Shown: one piece after another, positions 24,728 through 38,882 of the stretch | Layout: each line of letters begins with the position of its first letter | How positions within the stretch are numbered: the stretch's first letter is position 1 | Source of the DNA: Colwellia sp. M166 | GTDB lineage: Bacteria; Pseudomonadota; Gammaproteobacteria; Enterobacterales; Alteromonadaceae | Direction of reading: 5' to 3' | Assembly: GCF_024585285.1 (NCBI RefSeq) | Contig: NZ_CP040755.1 | Location: 4,030,001-4,094,000 of the forward strand | DNA: 64,000 nucleotides | Notes under the pieces: model-generated | Databases searched by the model: none | The model's input: the letters and a program-made list of their open reading frames with translations, nothing else | Told to the model about the DNA's origin: nothing | Translations under genes and position numbers: made by a program

Positions 24728-24824
24728 AACTAACAAGTCGTTTAAAAGGACAAAAAACAGTTGGCTTTTGCTCCTTCGTCGCTAATTTTAGCCAACAATT
24801 TTTTGCCTCTTAACGAGGCGTTAG
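24728..24824 (+). other. attC2
   Basis: 97-bp attC: R'' CTAAC at 24730-24734, inner arms CAGTTGGCT and AGCCAAC, R' GCGTTAG at 24818-24824. It is of the homogeneous type seen at attC3 to attC5, as expected of a sedentary chromosomal integron. Confidence 0.92.
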
Positions 24825-24866
24825 TAGTATCAGCAAATATCCATTATCAATCAAAGGGAAGTGTCA

Positions 24867-25058: not shown

Positions 25059-26166
25059 AATACTACTAATAAATAAAGGATAGGTTGCGCGCAGCCGCAA
25101 CTTAATCCTGTTGTTGAACAAGCCCGGTGTTGGTGCGTACTCTTTATAAGTAAATAAATAAAACTAAGATGGGTTGTCTGTTGGCGGTGCCTCTAAGCGG
25201 TGATTTTCAGGCCAAGCGCAGCTACTATCACTAAACAGAGTTTGGTAATATAGTAACGCAACAATTTGTTTTTTCTTATATTTATTATCCTCACTTTGTG
25301 ACTGTTTAGGGCGCAACAATTCCTTTTGCTTAGGCACTTCCTTGTTTTATATCGTATGACCCCTAATGACGCGATGACCTCGTCGCATTAGGTATAGCGT
25401 CATTTGAGTGGCACAATTAGGGCAACAAACGCCTTTTTTAGGTAATGTTTCACTGGGCGCTAACACCACGTTAAGCAGTAACTGTAACCGCTTTAACGTA
25501 CGGTTAGCATTGCCATGTAAAAAACCATAATTGCGTGCTCGTCGAAAACCGCTAGGCAGCACATGTTGTAGCACTCGCCATAAAAAGGCCGTAGCGTGCT
25601 CGGTGATGGTTTTAAACTGTTTCGTTTTACTTTCTTTATATTGAAACGTCACTCGGTCATGCTTAATCGAGAGTAGGTTGTTTTCATTCACCACCCCACG
25701 ATAGAGGTATCTAGCAAGGTAGGTTAACGCACTATCGCCTTTCCCTACGTGCTGACAATCAGCTACCCACGAACTAGAGGTTTTAGCCGGGAGATAATAA
25801 CCAGACGCACACAGTAGCGCGATGAATTTTCCTCGAAACACCTTGGCTAAGTTATATCGGCTTTAAAAAGGTATTTCCCTGATTTTGTTTGCCACTGTTT
25901 TCTCGATTTATCTAACCCGCCTGCGGGTACCACAAGATGAATGTGAGGGTGAAACTCAAGTCGTGCATATTCTCATGCATCGCGATCACCTAATACCATC
26001 TAAGCCGATCACTTAATACTATCCATCGCGATCACTCAATACCATCGATGCAGATCACTTTTTGGTCAAAATGGTATTGAGTGATCGGCTTGAATGGTAT
26101 CGTTCAATTTATACTCATTTTTGTCTATCCAGTAGGTGTTTCTAACCGTTATTCTTTTCATTTTTG

Positions 26167-27727
26167 ATGATGAGAATAACCATGCCAACGGCACCTATTT
26201 CAATGCGTAAACTTAAAGAGATTTTAAGACTAAAATACGACTGTAAACTCAGTCATCGAAAGATAGCAAACAGCTTATCTATTTCACCTTCAATTGTTTC
26301 TAAATATGCCTGTAAATCAGCAGAGTTAGGTATCACTTGCTGGCCGCTTGATGAAAAATGGGATGATCATTCTCTGCAACGAGCATTCTTCAAAACAAAG
26401 CCCCGACTAAAAGGCTTTAGTATTCCTGACTGGTTGTTAGTTCAGCAGGAGCTGCGACCCAAAACCATGACGCTATTGCTGCTTTGGCAAGAATACAAAG
26501 AGCGACACGAGGAAGGATTTTACAGTTACACCCACTTCTGCCGACAGTACAAGGCATGGCTTAAATGTCAAAAACCGTCCATGCGACAAAACCATAAAGC
26601 AGGTGAAAAACTGTTTGTTGATTACTGCGGCCCAACTATGAATATTGTTGATGCTAGTACAGGTGAATACCGTACAGCTCAAGTGTTTGTCGCAGTTATG
26701 GGCGCATCTAATTATACGTATGCGGAGGCAACGTATAGCCAAAAGCTAGAAGATTGGGTGATGAGTCATGCTCGCTGTTTTGAGTTTCTTGGTGGTGTGC
26801 CAGAGCTGGTAATCCCTGACAACTTAAAAAGTGCGGTAACTAAACCTTGTCGATATGAGCCTGATTTAAATCCAACCTACCAACAATTGGCGACACATTA
26901 TGATACGGTCATTGTGCCTGCTAGACCTTATAAGCCCAAGGATAAAGCCAAAGCAGAAGTGGGTGTGCAAATTGTCGAACGCTGGATAATGGCACGGCTT
27001 CGCAATGAAAGCTTCTTTAGCTTGCGCCAATTAAACCTAAAGATACAAAAACTGCTTGTCGACTTAAACCAGCGGAAAATGAAGAAGCACCCTGGTTCAA
27101 GGCTCAGTCAGTTTGAATCCATTGATAAACCTGCTCTCAAACCACTACCCACACAGGCTTACAGTTACACCTTAGTCAAACAAGTAAGCGTGCATATTGA
27201 TTATCATGTCGAAGTTGAAAAACACTACTACTCAGTACCTCATACCTTGATCAAACAAAAGCTTGAAGCCCATGCCACAGGTCAACTGGTGACACTTTTA
27301 CCATCAGGGTGTTCAAGTAGCCGTTCACCCAAGATCACACCGAGAAGGTGCACACACCACGCTTGATCTACATATGCCAATAGCTCATCAAAAGCAGCAG
27401 CAATGGTCACCACAACGGTTCGAACGTTGGGCAGCTAAGTTCGGTGGTTCAACGGAGCAGTTTGTTATGCAATTGATGCAAGCTAAAAAGCATCCAGAGC
27501 AAAGCTACCGTGCTTGTATGGGGTTATTAAGCCTAGGTAAGAAGTTTACTGACCAACGTCTTGAAGCAGCCTGTCATCGCGCATTAGCCACAGGTGTTAC
27601 TCGCGTAAAACAAGTAAAAAACATTTTAGAAAAGGGCTTGGATAAGCAACCCTTGCCACAAGCTCAAGGTGATTTACTACAAGATATTGATCATAAAAAT
27701 ATCCGCGGCAACAACTATTACCATTAA
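26167..27727 (+). pseudogene. istA: IS21-family transposase IstA, frameshifted
   Basis: DDE transposase with N-terminal helix-turn-helix (LSHRKIANSLSISPSIVSKY). Catalytic positions appear in FVDYCGP (Asp), VIPDNLKSAV (Asp) and KAKAEVGVQIVERW (Glu). The reading frame breaks near 27297 in a TTTT run; removal of one T restores VTLYHQGVQVAVHPRSHREG, continuous with the downstream frame 27374-27727. It could be a real mutation or a homopolymer sequencing error. Confidence 0.9.
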
Positions 27728-27755
27728 TCAAAACTAACAAACCAAAGGAAATCTT

Positions 27756-28520
27756 ATGCAAAATATCAATCAACAAGTCAATAACCAGTTAAGTAACTTA
27801 AAGCTAAGCGGTATACGTGATGCACTATTGCAGCAATATGAGCAACCCAATCTCTACGTTGAACAAAGCTTCGAAGAGCGACTAAGCTTATTGCTTGACT
27901 ATGAAATAACTCAGCGTGATCAGCGTAAAATTGACCGCCTAACTCGACAAGCAAAGTTCAGAGTTGGCGGTACGCTTGCTCAACTCAACTATGGCGCAGC
28001 ACGACAACTAGATAAAACTCAGATCCGTTCATTAGCACAAGGTGAATGGCTACGCCTTCACCAAAACATTTTGATCACGGGAGCAACGGGGTGTGGCAAA
28101 ACTTACCTCGCTTGTGCTCTTGGTCAAAACCACTGCCAACAAGGGAGTAGCGTTTATTATTTTAGGCTTAAAGAGCTATTAGAAAAGATGTTCTTAGCGC
28201 AAGCCGATGGTAGTTATCGAAAACTGATCAACAAGCTTAGCTCTGCCAATTTACTGATCCTAGATGATTGGGGATTAGAGCCATTAACAGCTCAACAACG
28301 CAGTGATTTACTGGAATTAATTGATGCGAGATATGACACAAAATCGACCTTAATTGCCAGCCAATTACCGATAGAAAATTGGTATGAAATGATCGGAGAA
28401 TCGACACATGCTGATGCGATCCTAGATCGGCTTGTTCACGGAGCAATAAAGTTGGAATTAAAAGGCGAATCGATGCGAAAAAAACTAAATTCCTTGACTG
28501 ATGGCGATCACTCAAGTTAG
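27756..28520 (+). CDS. istB: IS21-family helper ATPase IstB
   Basis: 254-residue AAA+ ATPase that assists IstA in target selection. Walker A is ITGATGCGKTYLA (about residues 108-120), Walker B is NLLILDDWGLEPL (about 169-181), and the N-terminal IstB domain has LKLSGIRDALLQQYEQP. AAAGGAAATCTT precedes the ATG. It appears intact and follows istA by 28 bp. Confidence 0.95.
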   Translation: MQNINQQVNNQLSNLKLSGIRDALLQQYEQPNLYVEQSFEERLSLLLDYEITQRDQRKIDRLTRQAKFRVGGTLAQLNYGAARQLDKTQIRSLAQGEWLRLHQNILITGATGCGKTYLACALGQNHCQQGSSVYYFRLKELLEKMFLAQADGSYRKLINKLSSANLLILDDWGLEPLTAQQRSDLLELIDARYDTKSTLIASQLPIENWYEMIGESTHADAILDRLVHGAIKLELKGESMRKKLNSLTDGDHSS

Positions 28521-29046
28521 ATTTTACTAAGGTCTACTGGCAGACAAAAAAGTGATCGGCTTGAATAGTATTGACCGATCGGCTTCATGATATTACGCAA
28601 GTCGCCTGGAGTGCGTGTGCAACACCGCAATCAGACCATTATTTTCCCCAAGCTGTTTATCTCGTTTAAAAAAAGCGTCTAGGGTTTGTTTAGCGGCAGT
28701 GAACATCGCTTGATAAGCCCACTTTTGGTGAGTCCAAATAAAATGACGACATTGATAAGGTAACGTGAACGTTACTAAATAATAATCTACAGGCAACAAT
28801 TTTTGTTGTTGCAACGTTAACCAATCACTATTGCTCTTATGTTGGCAAGCCGGACAGTGTCGATGGCCACATGAAGGATGAAAGGTGCTGTTGGTTTGAC
28901 AATCATCACAATGATACAACATTGCCCCTGCTTGTGGGGTATGGCACGCCATGATTTTTGTGAGTGCCTGATGGTGTACTCCTTTCATTTGTTTCGCGTA
29001 TTTTTGGGTAAATTCATCTTGATACTGTCTGGCTATCTGGGCGAGT

Positions 29047-29959
29047 TCAATCATCACGCTGCTCCCGCCAAGTAATGTTAAGCGAGTCAACGATATCATT
29101 GAGCATAAGTGTACTGTTTTGCGCGACTTCCTCTGTCATGCGGGTATAAAGCGCGGTTGTTTTGGGGCAAGCGTGACCTAGAAAAACTTGAATAGAGCGC
29201 AAACTCGCGCCACGCTCAAGCATATGGGTGGCAATAGAGTGTCTCAGCGTATGCACGTGAACATTTTTAGTTATGCCACAGGCGTTAGCGACAAGTTTAA
29301 TGGTTTTTTGTATACCGCCTTTGTCCATGACCAGCGTTTTGTCTTGTCGAATATGTGGTGGCTTCCCCCAGGAAACAACAAACTGGGATGACGGTGTGTT
29401 TTCCAATAATGACGTAATGCCAACAAGGTTGCTTGTGGCAAAGGAACGAAACGGTCTTTTTTTGTTTTTGGTATAACGTAAATGCACTTGCATTAAATGA
29501 CGATCAATATCAGCAATCGTTAAATTTAAGGTTTCAGATAAGCGTAACCCTAAACTATAAGTGGTTAAGTAATACACTTGGTATCGTAATTGACGCGTGG
29601 TATTAATAATTGCAGCGACTTCAGATAAGGATAAAACATCCTGAAGTGCTTGAACTTTAGGGGGGCTTAACAATATCAACCCATTGCCAAGGGCGCTGTA
29701 GCACATGTGTGTATAAAAACTGAATAGCACAACGGGTGATTTTAACGTGACTCCATGATTTATTCTCAACGAGGTACAGGAAGTAAGTTTTCAGCGCTTC
29801 AACCGTCAAGTCGTCTGGGCAGGTATCAAAGAAAGTGGCTGTTTGCCTAATGCATCGACTGTAACAGTCAATAGTTTTGTCACTTTTTCCTTGTAAGGTC
29901 AGTTCGTTAAGGTAAGATTGAACCAATAAATTGAAACGAGCTTGCTCGGTGATATTCAT
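29047..29959 (-). pseudogene. element tyrosine recombinase, copy 1, frameshifted
   Basis: SAM-like N-terminal domain (MNITEQARFNLLVQSYLNEL) and catalytic domain with YSLGLRLSETLNL (Arg), HVHTLRHSIATHML (HxxR), GHACPKTTALYTRM (His, Tyr). Three indels versus the deduced intact frame all lie in homopolymers: C6 for C5 at about 29661, A7 for A6 at about 29460, and G5 for G6 at about 29367 (minus-strand bases). The last two compensate. Its stop overlaps the transposase start. Confidence 0.85.
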
Positions 29960-30044
29960 AAGGTACTCCTCAAGACTGCCGACATTGACAGTTAAGGTAA
30001 GTACAGATTACTTTTGTTTTTTCTGCCGCAAAGCGGCTTCGTTC

Positions 30045-30137
30045 AACAAGAAAATAAACAAGGACTTAAAACAGTTTGTTGTTTTTCGTTCCTCAAAATT
30101 TTAACAAACCATTTTAAGCCTGTTATTTGGGCGTTAG
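30045..30137 (+). other. attC3, right part (site split by copy 1)
   Basis: Remainder of attC3: AACAAG, inner arms CAGTTTGTTG and CAAACCA, and R' GCGTTAG at 30131-30137. The left part is ACTACTAA at 25062-25069, complementary to the start of cassette 3 (TTAGTAGTAT), which proves the two pieces were one site. Confidence 0.87.
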
Positions 30138-30155
30138 GGCTCTAGGAGTATTTAA

Positions 30156-30620
30156 TTGAGTATTGCAATATCTGAAATCGAATTAGAAGGAAATGCATTC
30201 GAAAAAAATGCAGTAATGCTAATGCCCGTCAGCTTTAAGGCAGAAGATAATAATAAATATTCATCTACAGCTATTTCATTTTGGAAATATGCAAAAAATG
30301 AACTGGATCTGCAGTTATTTTCTGAACCAGAAGTGCTTGTTGAACAGCGTTCAGGAGAGTGGTTTGGACCAATGATCTTACTTTCTTCTGCAGTAGTCTC
30401 TGGTAATAGTGAATTAATATCAGTATTTTGTGGTGTCGTATCAAACTATTTAACAGACTTCTTTAAAGGAAGTTCTGAAAGTCCACAAATCAAACTTAAA
30501 GTGCTGTATAAGGAAACTAAGTCGACAAAAACAACTGAAATTTCATATGAAGGTGATATTAATGGACTTGATAAGTTGGAATCATCAATACTAGAAGTAG
30601 TAAAAAGAGATAAATCGTGA
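30156..30620 (+). CDS. cassette 4, gene A: unknown protein
   Basis: 154 residues with no recognised family. Mixed alpha/beta composition. A hydrophobic stretch GPMILLSSAVVSGNSELISV (about residues 71-90) could be a buried helix. The product is otherwise soluble-looking and ends with Lys/Glu-rich strands. Its TGA overlaps the GTG start of the next gene (GTGA), so the two are translationally coupled inside one cassette, which points to a shared function. Confidence 0.7.
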   Translation: MSIAISEIELEGNAFEKNAVMLMPVSFKAEDNNKYSSTAISFWKYAKNELDLQLFSEPEVLVEQRSGEWFGPMILLSSAVVSGNSELISVFCGVVSNYLTDFFKGSSESPQIKLKVLYKETKSTKTTEISYEGDINGLDKLESSILEVVKRDKS

Positions 30621-31357
30621 CTGACAAAATGTCCTTTGAAAAAATAAGTCAAAACTTTCGAGATTTCGTTGATTCATGTGGAAAGCTTAATTTTTTTACT
30701 CGTTCTAAAGAGCTACAAAGTCAAAAAGTTCAAGAATGTGAAGAATTTATTCTTCAAATAAAATCTTATAAGTCCCAAGCTGTTCATTTTGACAGTGAGC
30801 CTATGGCAAATGAATTCTTTCATATGCAATGTGTAGTTAATGCACTTAAATCGGTCTTGAATATGTGGTTGGCTTTAAAGGATGAGAGTTATCAAAAATC
30901 TTGGTCATTTTTAATTGATGCGCAAGAATATACATGTATTGGTTTAAAGGTAAAAGAATATGAAGGAATCCTCAATTTTCAACAACAATTAATTGATATT
31001 GAGAGTGCGGTTTTCCCTAGTTGGGCACTTTATAACAGCTCAGGAGCTACTGAATCTATTGGTAAGTGCTCAATTTGCACTGAAGATTTTTTAAATTGTG
31101 AACATATTGAGAATGAAATTTATTTTGGTTCTCTTTGCCAGAGGTTTGATCGAAAAATATTAGAAGTTGATCATGTAGCAGTAGTCGAAACTCCAAGAGA
31201 CAAAAGATGCATTATTACTAAAACATCTGATGATGACGGGAATATGATCGATTATTTCACTCTACTAAAAACAGGTGAAAATAAAAGTAAAGAAGAAGGT
31301 GTGATCGGGCATATGGAAGGTGTTGTATTCGCAATACCTTCGCTTGACGTAAGCTAG
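30617..31357 (+). CDS. cassette 4, gene B: unknown protein with Cys/His cluster
   Basis: 246 residues starting at GTG 30617 (or ATG 30629). The N-terminal half is helical (about residues 1-135). The second half has GKCSICTEDFLNCEHIENEI (about residues 149-168) and SLCQRFDRK, a Cys-x2-Cys-x7-Cys-x-His arrangement followed by another Cys, suggesting a metal site. No family was recognised with confidence. It is coupled to the preceding gene by a 4-base overlap, in a two-gene cassette closed by attC4. Confidence 0.7.
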   Translation: MTDKMSFEKISQNFRDFVDSCGKLNFFTRSKELQSQKVQECEEFILQIKSYKSQAVHFDSEPMANEFFHMQCVVNALKSVLNMWLALKDESYQKSWSFLIDAQEYTCIGLKVKEYEGILNFQQQLIDIESAVFPSWALYNSSGATESIGKCSICTEDFLNCEHIENEIYFGSLCQRFDRKILEVDHVAVVETPRDKRCIITKTSDDDGNMIDYFTLLKTGENKSKEEGVIGHMEGVVFAIPSLDVS

Positions 31358-31452
31358 CCCTAACAAGTTGCTCAAAAGGACAAAAAACAGTTTGCTGTTT
31401 TCGTTCCTCAACATTTTAGCAAACTATTTTTTGCCTCTTAGCAAGGCGTTAG
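31356..31452 (+). other. attC4
   Basis: 97-bp intact attC: R'' CCCTAAC 31358-31364 (complementary to cassette 4 start TTAGGGCT), inner arms CAGTTTGCTG and AGCAAACT, R' GCGTTAG 31446-31452. Confidence 0.93.
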
Positions 31453-31496
31453 AGAGCTAAAAGTGTTTAATCATATTTTGGGTGCAAAATAGCGCA

Positions 31497-31745
31497 ATGA
31501 AATTACCTAAACTAAAAAGTAAGTTTTCTATAATAGAAGGTATTTGCGTTTTCGCTGTTTTAATTGGAGTCAATTATCTTTGGGAAGTTATTTCCAGCAG
31601 AGAGTTTACTTATAAAAATATATTCATAAGTGAAACCGCAAACCCTTTTGCATTTTGGCTAATGGTTGCCTTTATGTCATTCGTTACAATTTTTGCCTTG
31701 TACGGAGCTTTATTCATGGAATTTGATAAGCGTAATTATAAATAG
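31497..31745 (+). CDS. cassette 5: small two-helix membrane protein
   Basis: 82 residues from ATG 31497 (GTG 31482 is an alternative; neither has a strong ribosome-binding site). Helices are at about residues 13-33 and 48-70, with a charged C-terminus EFDKRNYK. No family was recognised. The cassette's attC5 is interrupted four bases after the gene's flank by element copy 2. Confidence 0.6.
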   Translation: MKLPKLKSKFSIIEGICVFAVLIGVNYLWEVISSREFTYKNIFISETANPFAFWLMVAFMSFVTIFALYGALFMEFDKRNYK

Positions 31746-32030
31746 CTCTCTAATAAATAAAGGATAGGTTGCGCGCAGCCGCAACTTAATCCTGTTGTTG
31801 AACAAGCCCGGTGTTGGTGCGTACTCTTTATAAGTAAATAAATAAAACTAAGATGGGTTGTCTGTTGGCGGTGCCTTTAAGCGGTGATTTTCAGGCCAAG
31901 CGCAGCTACTATCACTAAACAGAGTTTGGTAATATAGTAACGCAACAATTTGTTTTTTCTTATATTTATTATCCTCACTTTGTGACTGTTTAGGGCGCAA
32001 CAATTCCTTTTGCTTAGGCACTTCCTTGTT

Positions 32031-33204
32031 TTATATCGTATGACCCCTAATGACGCGATGACCTCGTCGCATTCGGTATAGCGTCATTTGAGTGGCACAA
32101 TTAGGGCAACAAACGCCTTTTTTAGGTAATGTTTCACTGGGCGCTAACACCACGTTAAGCAGTAACTGTAACCGCTTTAACGTACGGTTAGCATTGCCAT
32201 GTAAAAAACCATAATTGCGTGCTCGTCGAAAACCGCTAGGCAGCACATGTTGTAGTACTCGCCATAAAAAGGCCGTAGCGTGCTCGGTGATGGTTTTAAA
32301 CTGTTTCGTTTTACTTTCTTTATATTGAAACGTCACTCGGTCATGCTTAATCGAGAGTAGGTTGTTTTCATTCACCACCCCACGATAGAGGTATCTAGCA
32401 AGGTAGGTTAACGCACTATCGCCTTTCCCTACGTGCTGACAATCAGCTACCCACGAACTAGAGATTTTAGCCGGGAGATAATAACCAGACGCACACAGTA
32501 GCGCGATGAATTTTCCTCGAAACACCTTGGCTAAGTTATCGGCTTTAAAAAGGTATTTCCCTGATTTTGTTTGCCACTGTTTTCTCGATTTATCTAACCC
32601 GCCAGAAGGCGCAACAATATGAATATGAGGGTGAAACTCAAGTCGTCGAGAGTGAGTGTGCAACACCGCAATGAGGCCATTATTTTCCCCAAGCTGTTTA
32701 TCTCGTTTAAAAAGAAGGCGCAACAATATGAATATGAGGGTGAAACTCAAGTCGTCGAGAGTGAGTGTGCAACACCGCAATGAGGCCATTATTTTCCCCA
32801 AGCTGTTTATCTCGTTTAAAAAAAGCGTCTAGGGTTTGTTTAGCGGCAGTGAACATCGCTTGATAAGCCCACTTTTGGTGAGTCCAAATAAAATGACGAC
32901 ATTGATAAGGTAACGTGAACGTTACTAAATAATAATCTACAGGCAACAATTTTTGTTGTTGCAACGTTAACCAATCACTATTGCTCTTATGTTGGCAAGC
33001 CGGACAGTGTCGATGGCCACATGAAGGATGAAAGGTGCTGTTGGTTTGACAATCATCACAATGATACAACATTGCCCCTGCTTGTGGGGTATGGCACGCC
33101 ATGATTTTTGTGAGTGCCTGATGGTGTACTCCTTTCATTTGTTTCGCGTATTTTTGGGTAAATTCATCTTGATACTGTCTGGCTATCTGGGCGAGTTCAA
33201 TCAT
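32031..33204 (-). pseudogene. IS91-like HUH transposase, copy 2
   Basis: The same enzyme as copy 1 with the HUH motif FHPHIHIVAPSGG and zinc ligands intact. A 109-bp duplication (32605-32713 repeated at 32714-32822) breaks the frame. The patch holding the HUH motif (about 32600-32660) is clearly more diverged from copies 1 and 3 than the rest of the gene. Confidence 0.87.
32605..32822. repeat. 109-bp tandem duplication in copy 2 transposase
   Basis: Units at 32605-32713 and 32714-32822 are almost identical, beginning GAAGGCGCAACAATATGAAT. Copies 1 and 3 have a single unit. Confidence 0.92.
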
Positions 33205-34106
33205 CACGCTGCTCCCGCCAAGTAATGTTAAGCGAGTCAACGATATCATTGAGCATAAGTGTACTGTTTTGCGCGACTTCCTCTGTCATGCGGGTATAAA
33301 GCGCGGTTGTTTTGGGGCAAGCGTGACCTAGAAAAACTTGAATAGAGCGCAAACTCGCGCCACGCTCAAGCATATGGGTGGCAATAGAGTGTCTCAGCGT
33401 ATGCACGTGAACATTTTTAGTTATGCCACAGGCGTTAGCGACAAGTTTAATGGTTTTTTGTATACCGCCTTTGTCCATGACCAGCGTTTTGTCTTGTCGA
33501 CTATGTGGTGGCTTCCCCCAGGAAACAACAAACTGGGATGACGGTGTGTTTTCCAATAATGACGTAATGCCAACAAGGTTGCTTGTGGAAAAGGAACGAA
33601 ACAGTCTTTTTGTTTTTGGTATAACGTAAATGCACTTGCATTAAATGACGATCAATATCAGCAATCGTTAAATTTAAGGTTTCAGATAAGCGCAAGCCTA
33701 AACTATAAGTGGTTAAGTAATACACTTGGTATCGTAATTGACGCGTGGTATTAATAATTGCAGCGACTTCAGATAAGGATAAAACATCCTGAAGTGCTTG
33801 AACTTTAGGGGGCTTAACAATATCAACCCATTGCCAAGGGCGCTGTAGCACATGTGTGTATAAAAACTGAATAGCACAACGGGTGATTTTAACGTGACTC
33901 CATGATTTATTCTCAACGAGGTACAGGAAGTAAGTTTTCAGCGCTTCAACCGTCAAGTCGTCTGGGCAGGTATCAAAGAAAGTGGCTGTTTGCCTAATGC
34001 ATCGACTGTAACAGTCAATAGTTTTGTCACTTTTTCCTTGTAAGGTCAGTTCGTTAAGGTAAGATTGAACCAATAAATTGAAACGAGCTTGCTCGATGAT
34101 ATTCAT
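33197..34106 (-). pseudogene. element tyrosine recombinase, copy 2, frameshifted
   Basis: The N-terminal and first catalytic part are in frame here (C5 tract gives WVDIVKPPKVQALQDV), unlike in copies 1 and 3. The frame is lost in the AAAAA tract at about 33608 (A5 for A6), so the C-terminal catalytic part lies in another frame (33197-33556). Confidence 0.87.
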
Positions 34107-34191
34107 AAGGTACTCCTCAAGACTGCCGATATTGACAGTTAAGGTAAGTACAGATTACTTTTGTTTTTTCTGCCGCAAAGCGGCTTCGTTC

Positions 34192-34283
34192 AATAAATTA
34201 AACAAGGACAAAAAACAGTTGGTTTTTGCTCCTTCGTCGCATATTTTAACCAACTATTTCTTGCCTGTTAATTGGGCTATGTG
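34192..34283 (+). other. attC5, right part, R' core altered
   Basis: The remainder of attC5 keeps arms CAGTTGGTT and AACCAACT, but the R' junction reads GGGCTATGTGCC. Cassette 6 ends with GGCACATAA, which predicts GGGCGTTATGTGCC, so the GT at the crossover point seems lost. This boundary may no longer recombine. Confidence 0.75.
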
Positions 34284-34537
34284 CCGTAGTGGTAGCGCAG
34301 TTGAGCAATTAGAATTGTATCATCTTGCTGTTTGTATACGATGCGATGCTCATCATTAATTCGACGAGACCAATAGCCTGATAACCCGTGCTTTAATGGC
34401 TCAGGTTTTCCAATGCCCTCATTTGGCGTTCTTTGGATATCTTTAATGAGCAAATTGACGCGTTTAAGTATTTTTTTGTCAGTAGTTTGCCAGTATAGAT
34501 ATTGTTCCCAGGCCTTAGTTGAAAAAGTGAGTTTCAC
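34277..34537 (-). CDS. yoeB: cassette 6: YoeB-family toxin
   Basis: 86-residue ribosome-dependent mRNA interferase of the RelE superfamily. Typical YoeB features are KAWEQYLYWQ at the start, GIGKPEPLKHGLSGYWSRRI in the middle, and the C-terminal active-site strand HRIVYKQQDD and RYHYGT. Its start overlaps the antitoxin stop by 4 bases. It is on the strand opposite to cassette orientation, so it depends on its own promoter. Confidence 0.92.
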   Translation of the reverse strand: MKLTFSTKAWEQYLYWQTTDKKILKRVNLLIKDIQRTPNEGIGKPEPLKHGLSGYWSRRINDEHRIVYKQQDDTILIAQLRYHYGT

Positions 34538-34785
34538 TCGATAAGCTCTCTTTGAGTGCCATTGCCAGCTTCAAGTTCGGCAATAGAATCAAGTAAGCTT
34601 CTAGCGTTAGCTGGAGATCTGAGTAAATATGTAGTTTCTTGCATTGAGTTATAGTCTTCTAGAGACATCATCACAACAGGAGCTTCACTTTTACGAGTTA
34701 TAATAACTGGCGCATGATCATTACAAACATTCGCCATTGTGTTTGCTAAATTTGCTCTAGCTGCTGTGTAGCTTATTGCATCCAT
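34534..34785 (-). CDS. yefM: cassette 6: YefM-family antitoxin
   Basis: 83 residues from ATG 34785 (MDAISYTAARANLANTM), the usual YefM start, with GGAG eight bases upstream; an ATG seven codons earlier is possible. The Phd/YefM DNA-binding domain has PVIITRKSEAPVVMMSLEDY, and the C-terminal tail binds the toxin. Two TGTAC motifs lie upstream at 34806-34823. Confidence 0.92.
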   Translation of the reverse strand: MDAISYTAARANLANTMANVCNDHAPVIITRKSEAPVVMMSLEDYNSMQETTYLLRSPANARSLLDSIAELEAGNGTQRELIE

Positions 34786-34805
34786 ATTGGACTCCAAATT
34801 GTTCA

Positions 34806-34823
34806 TGTACGTTTATTTGTACA
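34806..34823 (-). promoter_or_regulatory. putative YefM operator
   Basis: TGTACG (34806-34811) and TGTACA (34818-34823) lie 21-38 bp before the yefM start. TGTACA is the known YefM operator core, so autoregulation is likely. Confidence 0.6.
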
Positions 34824-35121
34824 GTATAACGTGGTGGCACATAATAAATAAAGGATAGGTTGCGCGCAGCCGCAACTTAATCCTGTTGTTGAACAAGCCC
34901 GGTGTTGGTGCGTACTCTTTATAAGTAAATAAATAAAACTAAGATGGGTTGTCTGTTGGCGGTGCCTCTAAGCGGTGATTTTCAGGCCAAGCGCAGCTAC
35001 TATCACTAAACAGAGTTTGGTAATATAGTAACGCAACAATTTGTTTTTTCTTATATTTATTATCCTCACTTTGTGACTGTTTAGGGCGCAACAATTCCTT
35101 TTGCTTAGGCACTTCCTTGTT

Positions 35122-36187
35122 TTATATCGTATGACCCATAATGACGCGATGACCTCGTCGCATTAGGTATAGCGTCATTTGAGTGGCACAATTAGGGCAA
35201 CAAACGCCTTTGTAGGTAATGTTTCACTGGGCGCTAACACCACGTTAAGCAGTAACTGTAACCGCTTTAACGTACGGTTAGCATTGCCATGTAAAAAACC
35301 ATAATTGCGTGCTCGTCGAAAACCGCTAGGCAGTACATGTTGTAGTACTCGCCATAAAAAGGCCGTAGCGTGCTCGGTGATGGTTTTAAACTGTTTCGTT
35401 TTACTTTCTTTATATTGAAACGTCACTCGGTCATGCTTAATCGAGAGTAGGTTGTTTTCATTCACCACCCCACGATAGAGGTATCTAGCAAGGTAGGTTA
35501 ACGCACTATCGCCTTTCCCTACGTGCTGACAATCAGCTACCCACGAACTAGAGGTTTTAGCCGGGAGATAATAACCAGACGCACACAGTAGCGCGATGAA
35601 TTTTCCTCGAAACACCTTGGCTAAGTTATCGGCTTTAAAAAGGTATTTCCCTGATTTTGTTTGCCACTGTTTTCTCGATTTATCTAACCCGCCTGCGGGT
35701 ACCACAAGATGAATGTGAGGGTGAAACTCAAGTCGCCTGGAGTGCGTGTGCAACACCGCAATGAGGCCATTATTTTCCCCAAGCTGTTTATCTCGTTTAA
35801 AAAAAAAGCGTCTAGGGTTTGTTTAGCGGCAGTGAACATCGCTTGATAAGCCCACTTTTGGTGAGTCCAAATAAAATGACGACATTGATAGGGTAACGTG
35901 AACGTTACTAAATAATAATCTACAGGCAACAATTTTTGTTGTTGCAACGTTAACCAATCACTATTGCTCTTATGTTGGCAAGCCGGACAGTGTCGATGGC
36001 CACATGAAGGATGAAAGGTGCTGTTGGTTTGACAATCATCACAATGATACAACATTGCCCCTGCTTGTGGGGTATGGCACGCCATGATTTTTGTGAGTGC
36101 CTGATGGTGTACTCCTTTCATTTGTTTCGCGTATTTTTGGGTAAATTCATCTTGATACTGTCTGGCTATCTGGGCGAGTTCAATCAT
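35122..36187 (-). pseudogene. IS91-like HUH transposase, copy 3, frameshifted
   Basis: Carries FHPHIHLVVPAGGLDKSRKQ (HUH), the zinc motif and LARYLYRG. The frame shifts in an A9 run at about 35802 (A7 in copies 1 and 2), and a second indel near 35212 alters the C-terminal CPNCATQMTLY segment. Confidence 0.88.
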
Positions 36188-37092
36188 CACGCTGCTCCCG
36201 CCAAGTAATGTTAAGCGAGTCAACGATATCATTGAGCATAAGTGTACTGTTTTGCGCGACTTCCTCTGTCATGCGGGTATAAAGCGCGGTTGTTTTGGGG
36301 CAAGCGTGACCTAGAAAAACTTGAATAGAGCGCAAACTCGCGCCACGCTCAAGCATATGGGTGGCAATAGAGTGTCTCAGCGTATGCACGTGAACATTTT
36401 TAGTTATGCCACAGGCGTTAGCGACAAGTTTAATGGTTTTTTGTATACCGCCTTTGTCCATGACCAGCGTTTTGTCTTGTCGAATATGTGGTGGCTTCCC
36501 CCCAGGAAACAACAAACTGGGATGACGGTGTGTTTTCCAATAATGACGTAATGCCAACAAGGTTGCTTGTGGCAAAGGAACGAAACGGTCTTTTTTGTTT
36601 TTGGTATAACGTAAATGCACTTGCATTAAATGACGATCAATATCAGCAATCGTTAAATTTAAGGTTTCAGATAAGCGCAACCCTAAACTATAAGTGGTTA
36701 AGTAATACACTTGGTATCGTAATTGACGCGTGGTATTAATAATTGCAGCGACTTCAGATAAGGATAAAACATCCTGAAGTGCTTGAACTTTAGGGGGGCT
36801 TAACAATATCAACCCATTGCCAAGGGCGCTGTAGCACGTGTGTGTATAAAAACTGAATAGCACAACGGGTGATTTTAACGTGACTCCATGATTTATTCTC
36901 AACGAGGTACAGGAAGTAAGTTTTCAGCGCTTCAACCGTCAAGTCGTCTGGGCAGGTATCAAAGAAAGTGGCTGTTTGCCTAATACATCGACTGTAACAG
37001 TCAATAGTTTTGTCACTTTTTCCTTGTAAGGTCAGTTCGTTAAGGTAAGATTGAACCAATAAATTGAAACGAGCTTGCTCGGTGATATTCAT
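36180..37092 (-). pseudogene. element tyrosine recombinase, copy 3, one frameshift
   Basis: Intact catalytic domain (36180 to about 36790) including TKNKKDRFVPLPQATLLALR and LLFPGGKPPHIRQDK. The N-terminal domain (36790-37092) is in another frame because of a C6 tract at about 36794. A single base would restore it, so this copy shows the true C-terminal sequence. Confidence 0.88.
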
Positions 37093-37177
37093 AAGGTACT
37101 CCTCAAGACTGCCGACATTGACAGTTAAGGTAAGTACAGATTACTTTTGTTTTTTCTGCCGCAAAGCGGCTTCGTTC

Positions 37178-37240
37178 AACAATCCAATTAATCCGACCTC
37201 AACTCGCTTCGCTCTTTTCGCCGGTTTATTGGGGTATGAC
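37178..37240 (+). other. attC6, right part, degenerate R'
   Basis: AACAATCCAATTAATCCGAC starts the remnant, and the junction reads GGGGTATGAC instead of a GTTATGAC core. It differs in sequence from attC2-attC5. It is followed by about 1 kb of decayed mobile DNA (to 38224) with no intact gene. Confidence 0.6.
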
Positions 37241-38310: not shown

Positions 38311-38592
38311 ATGACTAGACTTCATTTTGATCAAGATATTCAACCACTTTCTGATTTTAGAGCTGGTGCAGCGTCATTTATTCGTCAAATTAACGAAACA
38401 AGAAGACCAATTGTGATAACACAAAGAGGAAAAGGTGTGGCTGTAGTTGTCGATGTGGCAGAATATGAGTCAATGCAGGAAAAAATTGAATTACTTGAAG
38501 AAGTACAAAAAGCTGAAGCTCAACTTTCTGCTGGATTAGGTATTTCTAATTCTGATGCTCGCGCACAAATTTTAAAGAGTATTAATCCTTGA
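38311..38592 (+). CDS. cassette: Phd/YefM-family antitoxin
   Basis: 93 residues: FDQDIQPLSDFRAGAASFIR then RPIVITQRGKGVAVVVDVAE, the Phd/YefM DNA-binding domain, with a helical C-terminal toxin-binding tail (about residues 55-93). Its stop overlaps the toxin start by 4 bases (ATGA type), and a palindromic operator lies just upstream. Second of three toxin-antitoxin cassettes in this integron. Confidence 0.9.
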   Translation: MTRLHFDQDIQPLSDFRAGAASFIRQINETRRPIVITQRGKGVAVVVDVAEYESMQEKIELLEEVQKAEAQLSAGLGISNSDARAQILKSINP

Positions 38593-38882
38593 AAGTAGTT
38601 TGGTCACCTTTAGCGTTAGAAAAACTAGAAGTGTCTGCTAAGTTTATTGCGCTTGATAAACCATCGGCTGCAGACAAATGGGTTAATGATGTTTTTGATC
38701 GCACTGACTTACTCGGTTCTCAACCTGAATTAGGCCGAGAAGTGCCAGAGTTGTCAGGTTCAAATTATCGTGAAGTGATATTTGGTAGTTATCGTATTAT
38801 CTATAAAGTTGAAAATGAAGTTAAAATACTAACTTTACGTAATAGTCGTCAGTTGCTTAGTTTGGATGATATTGAGTTATAA
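38589..38882 (+). CDS. cassette: RelE/ParE-superfamily toxin
   Basis: 97 residues with the ParE/RelE fold: WSPLALEKLEVSAKFIALDK, ELGREVPELSGSNYREVIFG and YRIIYKVENEVKILTLRNSR. It is more ParE-like than RelE-like, so the target (gyrase or ribosome) is uncertain. The stop codon TAA is part of the attC R'' (GAGTTATAAG), showing how tightly the cassette ends. Confidence 0.88.
   Translation: MKVVWSPLALEKLEVSAKFIALDKPSAADKWVNDVFDRTDLLGSQPELGREVPELSGSNYREVIFGSYRIIYKVENEVKILTLRNSRQLLSLDDIEL

Follow-up and report, generated by a model that had tools for sequence, protein, structure and literature searches.

IS91-type transposons with their own tyrosine recombinase that probably specialize on the attC sites of integrons

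Our results suggest that a clade of IS91-type transposons, which encode a Y2 HUH transposase and a compact tyrosine recombinase, has specialized on attC, the recombination site of integrons. We put the probability of this reading, including the mechanism proposed below, at about 60%. The element was found in a 64,000-nucleotide stretch of the chromosome of Colwellia sp. M166 (the window; NZ_CP040755.1, positions 4,030,001 to 4,094,000), which holds an integron with intI on the minus strand followed by cassettes. An element of about 2.33 kb is present in the window three times, in near-identical form and always in the same orientation. The copies interrupt attC after the TAA of the R'' box, in one orientation and between unrelated flanks. 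New here would be the target, attC at one fixed base of R'', together with ends that, judged from their sequence, rebuild attC-like sites.

Results

Insertion point in the Colwellia genome

The element inserts at the AA of the R'' box (RYYYAA^C) on the top strand of attC, and its transposase gene lies antisense to the host cassette. The three copies in the window share their ends (TAAATAAAGGATAGGTTGCGCGCAGCCGCAAC... on the left and ...CTGCCGCAAAGCGGCTTCGTTCAA on the right). Their left flanks are CTACTAA, CTCTCTAA and GGCACATAA, and their right flanks are unlike each other. An initial annotation of the window had described three copies with shared ends and the same orientation, each inside an attC after the TAA of R''. 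This is clear for copies 1 and 2, whereas the right half of the attC around copy 3 is damaged. The starts it gave were right; its right ends (30044, 34191 and 37177) are two bases short, which is within the ambiguity of the junctions. Its wording, that IntI cuts at the same core and that the element may read the folded bottom strand, has to be qualified: the exchange is at R'', on the top strand and in inverted orientation, and not at the R' position of the bottom strand where IntI cuts.

The first 501 bases of the element occur, whole or in part, at nine places in five regions of the 4.84-Mb chromosome. All nine left flanks end in TAA (CTAA in five, CATAA in three and TATAA in one). The right end is kept in six copies, where the next bases are CAAG (four), CAAT (one) or TAAA (one). 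The three copies that lack it are truncated, and two of these adjoin the same IS110/IS1111-like gene (by eye). Truncated copies L011 and L012 share the sequence that follows; the break is just inside the attC-like left end in L012 and about 180 bases in for L011.

For the right halves of attC we built a model, R1, from 28 training sequences: 26 flanks of element copies and two intact attC sites of the window. In the genome scan 150 of 2704 first-look candidates were scored, so the number of matches is a lower bound; with a limit of E ≤ 0.01, R1 recognizes at least 20 right halves of attC. Of the six right junctions, five lie within 3 bases of the start of one of these matches, and four of the five are outside the training set. 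The sixth belongs to copy 3 of the window, where the R' core is broken and the match reaches only E 0.61. The right-hand attC sites of the six complete copies are all different. The genome has 431 occurrences of YTAACAAG and 251 of TAACAAN5TNAA. Hence, a linear motif does not suffice for targeting.

Insertion points of relatives

Relatives of the transposase, including those of a sister clade described below, occur in at least 31 of 295 genomes of the family (E ≤ 1e-40) and in at least 36 of 394 genomes of the order (E ≤ 1e-80), with about five or six candidates scored per genome. A collection of 84,980 species gave 392 places, the best 80 of which were kept. Record titles among the relatives include desulfobacterial and Bacteroidota ones and one Chloroflexota metagenome-assembled genome (MAG). 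Relatives inserted in attC come from Gammaproteobacteria, from desulfobacterial and Bacteroidota MAGs and from one E. coli class 1 integron, and in two genomes with four copies each all copies are in attC (4/4 and 4/4, by eye). The initial annotation had proposed an IS91-like attC specialist with its own tyrosine recombinase, which these copies in several phyla support well.

Among 143 transposase places, duplicates included, the 5' end was found in 111 and the 3' end in 123. Sixty places were dropped (one end missing, a short flank, or a duplicate), leaving 83 distinct sites with both flanks, or 81 without two sites of the sister clade. An R1 match at E ≤ 0.01 starts at 39 of the 81 junctions, 14 of these from loci outside the training set; for this test only matches near junctions, selected by hand, were used. 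R1 was used alongside the third of three attC stem scorers. The first required a near-perfect GTTRRRY and lost obvious sites, and the null of the second was too lenient; both were rejected. A strict attC test, with either R1 or the stem as evidence, accepts 51 of the 81 sites and a lax version 58, so that the majority of copies are found in attC-like sequence. Twenty-three sites pass none, although some of these (L077, L060, L064, L082 and L140) are attC by eye. R1 also matches arrays away from the element, for example 11 more times in L070, as expected of attC.

The bases at the junctions were counted at places at least 38% identical to a query, as were the end patterns reported below, with patterns that do not force the counted bases. 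Positions +1 to +3 of the right flanks are C in 88, A in 83 and A in 86 of 90 sites; positions -3 to -1 of the left flanks are T in 87, A in 96 and A in 96 of 97. The AA behind the first C of the right flank follows R'', while R' of the bottom strand would give CGCC or similar. Hence, the insertions are in R''. CAAG abuts the element at 50 of the 90 sites; at the other 40 it does not.

In a genome of the same genus (L058 and L019) a relative lies within a cassette array, where it splits the attC of a cassette that resembles dihydrofolate reductase (by eye).

A natural empty site

On the E. coli IncC plasmid RCS41_p (NZ_LT985243; NZ_LT985243.1:6382-17293), a class 1 integron with several resistance cassettes has a member of the clade in its aadA1 attC. 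This element is annotated only as IS91 family transposase plus site-specific integrase. Its left flank is TGTCTAA and its right flank CAATTCGTTCAAGCC. Plasmid R100 has the same stretch without the element and with the aadA1 attC uninterrupted. At this one site there is neither target duplication nor loss, and the absence of a target duplication is what is expected of the IS91 family. A megablast search with the RCS41_p element matched a single record among 72,556 from plasmids; in an E. coli collection of 20,395 records it matched none.

Genes of the element

Both genes are intact in a copy outside the window (L010:4496-6828), which encodes an IS91-type transposase of 369 amino acids (aa) and a tyrosine recombinase of 303 aa. 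The transposase matches Pfam Y2_Tnp (1.4e-43) and Zn_Tnp_IS91 (9e-27) and scores 355.7 bits with the NCBIfam IS91 model, whose cut-off is 125. Across 14 chosen transposases H170-x-H172-x-H174, Y246 and Y250, which we take to be catalytic, are invariant, as are the presumed catalytic residues of the recombinase across 13 recombinases.

The tyrosine recombinase of the element is not IntI, as judged from its sequence. The insertion specific to IntI is absent from five aligned element recombinases, and element recombinases score 123–168 bits on the IntI model TIGR02249, below its cut-off of 265. For a tree of element recombinases and IntI the program warned of long branches meeting. A recombinase open reading frame (ORF), whole or partial, adjoins the transposase in 16 of 17 listed loci (by eye); in the one exception, L022, no recombinase ORF of at least 140 aa is listed.

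Ends that resemble attC

Of 90 distinct 5' ends, 85 start in transposase sense with TTGAAC or TTGGAC, and GAAGCCGCn(1-6)GCGG lies downstream. GAAC with a GC-rich stem-loop, as present here, marks the ter end of IS91-type elements (PMC3189936, in excerpt). The typical 3' end reads ...ATCCTTATTTG. Joining the two ends in a circle would in most cases give the core GTTGAAC, in agreement with GTTRRRY. An RYYYAAC box some 50 bases in from the 3' end complements this core in 74 of 78 elements (at 6 or 7 of the 7 positions); with shuffled ends this was so in one of 78.

The site at the circle junction would be 54–68 bases long. Folds of 60 distinct junctions as single-stranded DNA were compared with shuffles and gave a median z of -4.49, with 53 of 60 below -2; this sample holds left flanks ending in AA only and 3' ends found by a pattern that contains the internal box. 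A one-base bulge is present in 44 of the 60 folds. The hairpin of attC likewise has an extrahelical base. The joined ends are therefore predicted to form an attC-like site, with R'' GTTCAAC, R' GTTGAAC, a hairpin and often a one-base bulge.

With such ends an insertion leaves an attC-like site at each junction. The left junction reads host RYYTAA, then C...hairpin...GTTGAAC of the element, and the right junction reads GTTCAA of the element, then host CAAG...R'. Elements of the window's own subclade have T as their first base, which leaves the rebuilt left R'' imperfect.

A sister clade next to intI

In a transposase tree made with a quick method the attC clade forms one branch (47 rows; Shimodaira-Hasegawa-like approximate likelihood-ratio test, SH-aLRT, 100), its rows thinned to every second, and a sister clade another (16 rows; SH-aLRT 99). 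Sister transposases are about 30–38% identical to those of the window type, and the 5' end of the sister elements is TTGAACTAAGCCGCnnnGCGGAG. Their 3' end is a fuller attC in the loci viewed (GTTCAAC...CTAAAGCG|TT). The pattern for sister elements caught 31 loci, eight of which were reassigned to the attC clade by eye, leaving 23.

At 8 of the 23 sister loci the N-terminal part of intI lies at most 900 bp from the 5' end and points away; one such intI that was checked scores 494.5 bits against the cut-off of 265. Hence, these sister elements occupy the position of the first cassette. One more sister element (L204) lies directly behind the R' of an attC (by eye). No intI was seen at the other 15 loci, seven of which have more than 1.2 kb of host sequence, and for that stretch the absence is real. 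In the attC clade intI is near none of 94 5' ends, nine of which have less than 350 bp of host sequence. A gene cassette is expected at attI, or at R' in cassette orientation. The attC clade, inverted in R'', is in neither place, whereas the sister clade is there in 8 of 23 loci and once behind an attC.

On a Vibrio campbellii plasmid (L066) a sister element stands at an attI-like sequence and is followed by an arr gene; intI was undetected in the 3 kb upstream. Eleven further Vibrio plasmid records (H11-H21) share the L066 transposase match.

The three copies in the window

None of the three copies has both genes intact (Table 1). The extra length of copy 1 comes from an inserted IS21-like istA/istB pair (family by eye). 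The same pair is also found at L011:6234-9593, directly beside a second intI gene of the genome. The duplication in copy 2 is a perfect tandem at window positions 32604-32821. Toxin-antitoxin-like pairs (YoeB/YefM-like and ParDE-like, by eye only) in cassettes adjoining copies 2 and 3 lie at 34277-34806 and 38311-38882. The right end of copy 3 resembles an IS91-type ter (GAAC in transposase sense), as compared with the left ends of IS801 and IS91 in the excerpted PMC3189936.

Table 1. Features of the integron array and of the three element copies, in window positions.
Feature	Position	Strand	Basis
Integron integrase gene intI of the array, 326 aa	21716..22696	-	60 and 56% alignment with two ORFs that pass TIGR02249
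Intact attC ahead of the cassette carrying copy 1	24730..24826	+	R1 match from 24734, E 2.4e-17; in training set
CTACTAA, left half of R'' in the attC split by copy 1	25063..25069	+	complements cassette start GTTAGTAG at 24820
Element copy 1, with IS21-like insertion	25070..30046	-	ends, flanks, repeats
IS21-like istA/istB insertion in copy 1 (limits approximate, family by eye)	25964..28600	+	ORFs 26164-27366, 27374-27727 and 27756-28520; break in repeat relative to copy 3
attC split by copy 1, right half	30047..30139	+	R1 match from 30047, E 7.6e-13
Intact attC ahead of the cassette carrying copy 2	31360..31456	+	R1 match from 31364, E 3.2e-16; in training set
Element copy 2, with 109-bp tandem duplication within the transposase gene	31754..34193	-	repeats, ends, flanks
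attC split by copy 2, right half	34194..34282	+	R1 match from 34191, E 9.4e-11
Element copy 3, full length, ORFs frameshifted	34845..37179	-	ORFs, ends, flanks
Left end of copy 3; a circle that joins it with the right end would contain an attC-like site (R'' GTTCAAC / R' ATTGAAC, transposase sense)	34845..34897	+	sequence; junction fold z -2.69
Transposase gene of copy 3 (IS91-type Y2 HUH), broken by a frameshift into ORFs 35684-36232 and 35175-35756	35175..36232	-	family taken from the intact copy
Gene for the tyrosine recombinase in copy 3, broken by a frameshift into ORFs 36790-37092 and 36180-36902	36180..37092	-	family taken from the intact copy
Right end of copy 3: GC-rich hairpin GCCGC-AAA-GCGGC, then TTCGTTCAA	37155..37179	+	sequence
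attC split by copy 3, right half with damaged R' core (by eye)	37180..37239	+	R1 match starting exactly at 37180, only E 0.61

Discussion

How could such an element insert into attC? The bases at the junctions narrow down the answer. Putative circles of the Colwellia element carry T where the targets carry C; the left junctions keep the T in all nine copies and the right junctions the C in five of six. Together with the heterologous bases on both sides, this pins the exchange to the AA. It is a poor fit for a classical recombinase, which would need a homologous overlap of 6–8 bp, and fits the joining of one strand.

We propose that the HUH protein most likely peels off a single-stranded copy of the plus strand, beginning at the left end (the position of ori in IS91), and that peeling most likely stops after the GC-rich hairpin at GTTCAA (the ter of IS91, GAAC in transposase sense). 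The single-stranded circle, with its attC-like hairpin junction, would be joined to R'' by a one-strand exchange through the HUH protein or the recombinase, and the second strand would then be made by replication. With attC sites rebuilt, the array would stay open to the host IntI, and IntI could then also mobilize the element in the manner of a cassette. For the insertion step we lean slightly towards the HUH protein, with the recombinase perhaps acting on the circle or on the junctions.

At even odds we would go one step further. The lineage may have turned its own ends into an integron site: copied by an HUH rolling circle and landing in R'', it would split one attC into two working ones, leave the array usable and gain a second mobility through the host integrase. 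The sister lineage would live as the first cassette at attI.

Several observations weigh against specialization on attC by this route. Only 45 sites (of 81, or of 83 with the two sister-clade sites) pass the stem test at p ≤ 0.05. About 10 of the 23 failing sites are plainly not attC by eye (L065, L083, L131, L097, L148, L121, L122, L147, L081 and L169). Hence, either the preference for attC is not absolute or these arrays have decayed. The structure in R1 has only 5 base pairs, which makes it mostly a sequence profile, and since 26 of its 28 training sequences are flanks of the element, a match at another junction means similarity to those flanks. The folds of the circle junctions have no one-base bulge in 16 of 60 cases, and at least 5 bases of the R boxes are paired in only 38 of 60. 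The core of the circle of the window element would be ATTGAAC, a poor attC for IntI. The insertion that the element recombinase is missing is presumably the part of IntI that grips the folded attC. Finally, transposition, the circle and the single strand in our model are all predicted from sequence.

The strongest alternative is a variant in which the tyrosine recombinase of the element does the inserting, by an IntI-like one-strand exchange between the attC-like circle and R'', and the HUH protein only supplies the single-stranded circle. We consider this variant tentative, although a good deal agrees with it. The crossover is at the integron core AA^C, the circle junction is attC-like, a recombinase ORF or part of one stands beside the transposase in 16 of 17 loci (by eye), the likely catalytic residues are invariant in 13 recombinases, and the sister clade is found in cassette positions. 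However, the recombinase lacks the IntI-specific insertion and scores well below the IntI cut-off (123–168 bits against 265), and at L022 no recombinase ORF of at least 140 aa is listed. The 5' end, with GAAC and a GC-rich hairpin as in IS91 and IS801, speaks for the HUH protein (PMC3189936, in excerpt), and the IS91 transposase is itself described as inserting a single-stranded intermediate in the part of PMC5714925 at hand.

It is unlikely that the host IntI inserts the elements of the attC clade, which would then simply be large gene cassettes. IntI uses the R' of the attC bottom strand and cuts there, whereas these elements are inverted and in R''. No intI was seen near any of the 94 5' ends of the attC clade (nine with less than 350 bp of host sequence), the core of the window element is without the G of GTT, and the right-hand attC sites of the Colwellia copies differ, though IntI would carry them along. 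What remains in favor of IntI is that both junctions and the circle are attC-like and that sister elements occupy normal cassette positions (beside intI in 8 of 23 loci, once behind an attC). For the sister clade insertion by the host IntI may well be the right explanation.

A further explanation needs no special relation to integrons. CAAG and GAAC are described as targets of IS801, and such tetramers would occur by chance in the TAACAAG of attC. CAAG does follow the right end at 50 of 90 sites, and the 5' end has the GAAC and GC-rich hairpin of the IS91 type. Yet CAAG is missing at the other 40 sites, and with 431 occurrences of YTAACAAG in the genome, five of six testable copies are at one of at least 20 attC matches. 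Ordinary IS91 target choice is thus improbable and largely refuted as a full explanation, while it is plausible as an evolutionary start.

That IntI shuffled, or duplication multiplied, a single ancestral insertion can be dismissed for the copies examined and is hardly credible in general: several copies do lie close together in arrays, but both flanks differ among all six complete copies, the nine places are spread over five chromosomal regions, and R100 provides a natural empty site with a clean join for a relative. The initial annotation had read the differing right flanks as separate events and had named an empty-site comparison as a possible refutation; its reading stands.

Other mobile elements share one or the other trait with the elements described here. 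ISMno24 represents IS91 elements with a recombinase gene: its record annotation has the same two-gene layout as our element, whose transposase belongs to the IS91 family by NCBIfam. We take ISShvi3 to be a further IS91 family element with a tyrosine recombinase gene beside the transposase. The transposase of ISMno24 falls in neither of the two integron-linked clades of our tree, and attC-forming ends are not described for its type in the excerpts at hand. Another IS91-like element, ISCR28, is found next to sul4; we liken it to ours by description only. The excerpted PMC12772301 reports that attC sites coincide with ISCR28 genes or follow them, although it does not show the data, and treats ISCR28 as possibly shuffled passively in cassettes; insertion in R'' and attC-forming ends are not described in that excerpt.

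Two groups of unrelated elements also use attC. Group IIC-attC introns move by retrohoming with a reverse transcriptase, and IS1111-attC elements have a DEDD transposase of the IS110/IS1111 type, with enzymes and ends unrelated to those studied here. Insertion into attC is reported for the introns and for the IS1111-attC insertion sequences (Post and Hall) in the available part of PMC9229058, and elements of either group at attC are also mentioned in that of PMC7923331. The genes of our element are not of these kinds: they encode an HUH transposase and a tyrosine recombinase in place of a DEDD enzyme, and no reverse transcriptase ORF was seen in the element, both of whose genes belong to other families. 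Integron gene cassettes are alike in having one attC-like site per circle, which for our element is indicated by sequence (74 of 78) and fold (53 of 60) only, and in the cassette positions of the sister clade. They are unlike in that the element brings a transposase and a recombinase, and in the inverted position of the attC clade in R''. As the initial annotation had supposed, we found no description of an IS91-type element that inserts in R'' of attC, or of attC-forming ends, in the accessible portions of the open-licence PubMed Central literature.

Integrons trade genes through attC sites, and among them are the class 1 integrons with clinical resistance genes. An element aimed at attC that brings an attC-like site of its own, found on one E. 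coli IncC resistance plasmid, would link HUH rolling-circle transposition to integron recombination. It could live in gene-collecting arrays, resistance arrays included, without breaking them. It may also explain why IS91-like elements have been reported beside attC without a mechanism. Finally, the clade offers a natural test case for whether the single-strand folding of attC is used by enzymes besides IntI.

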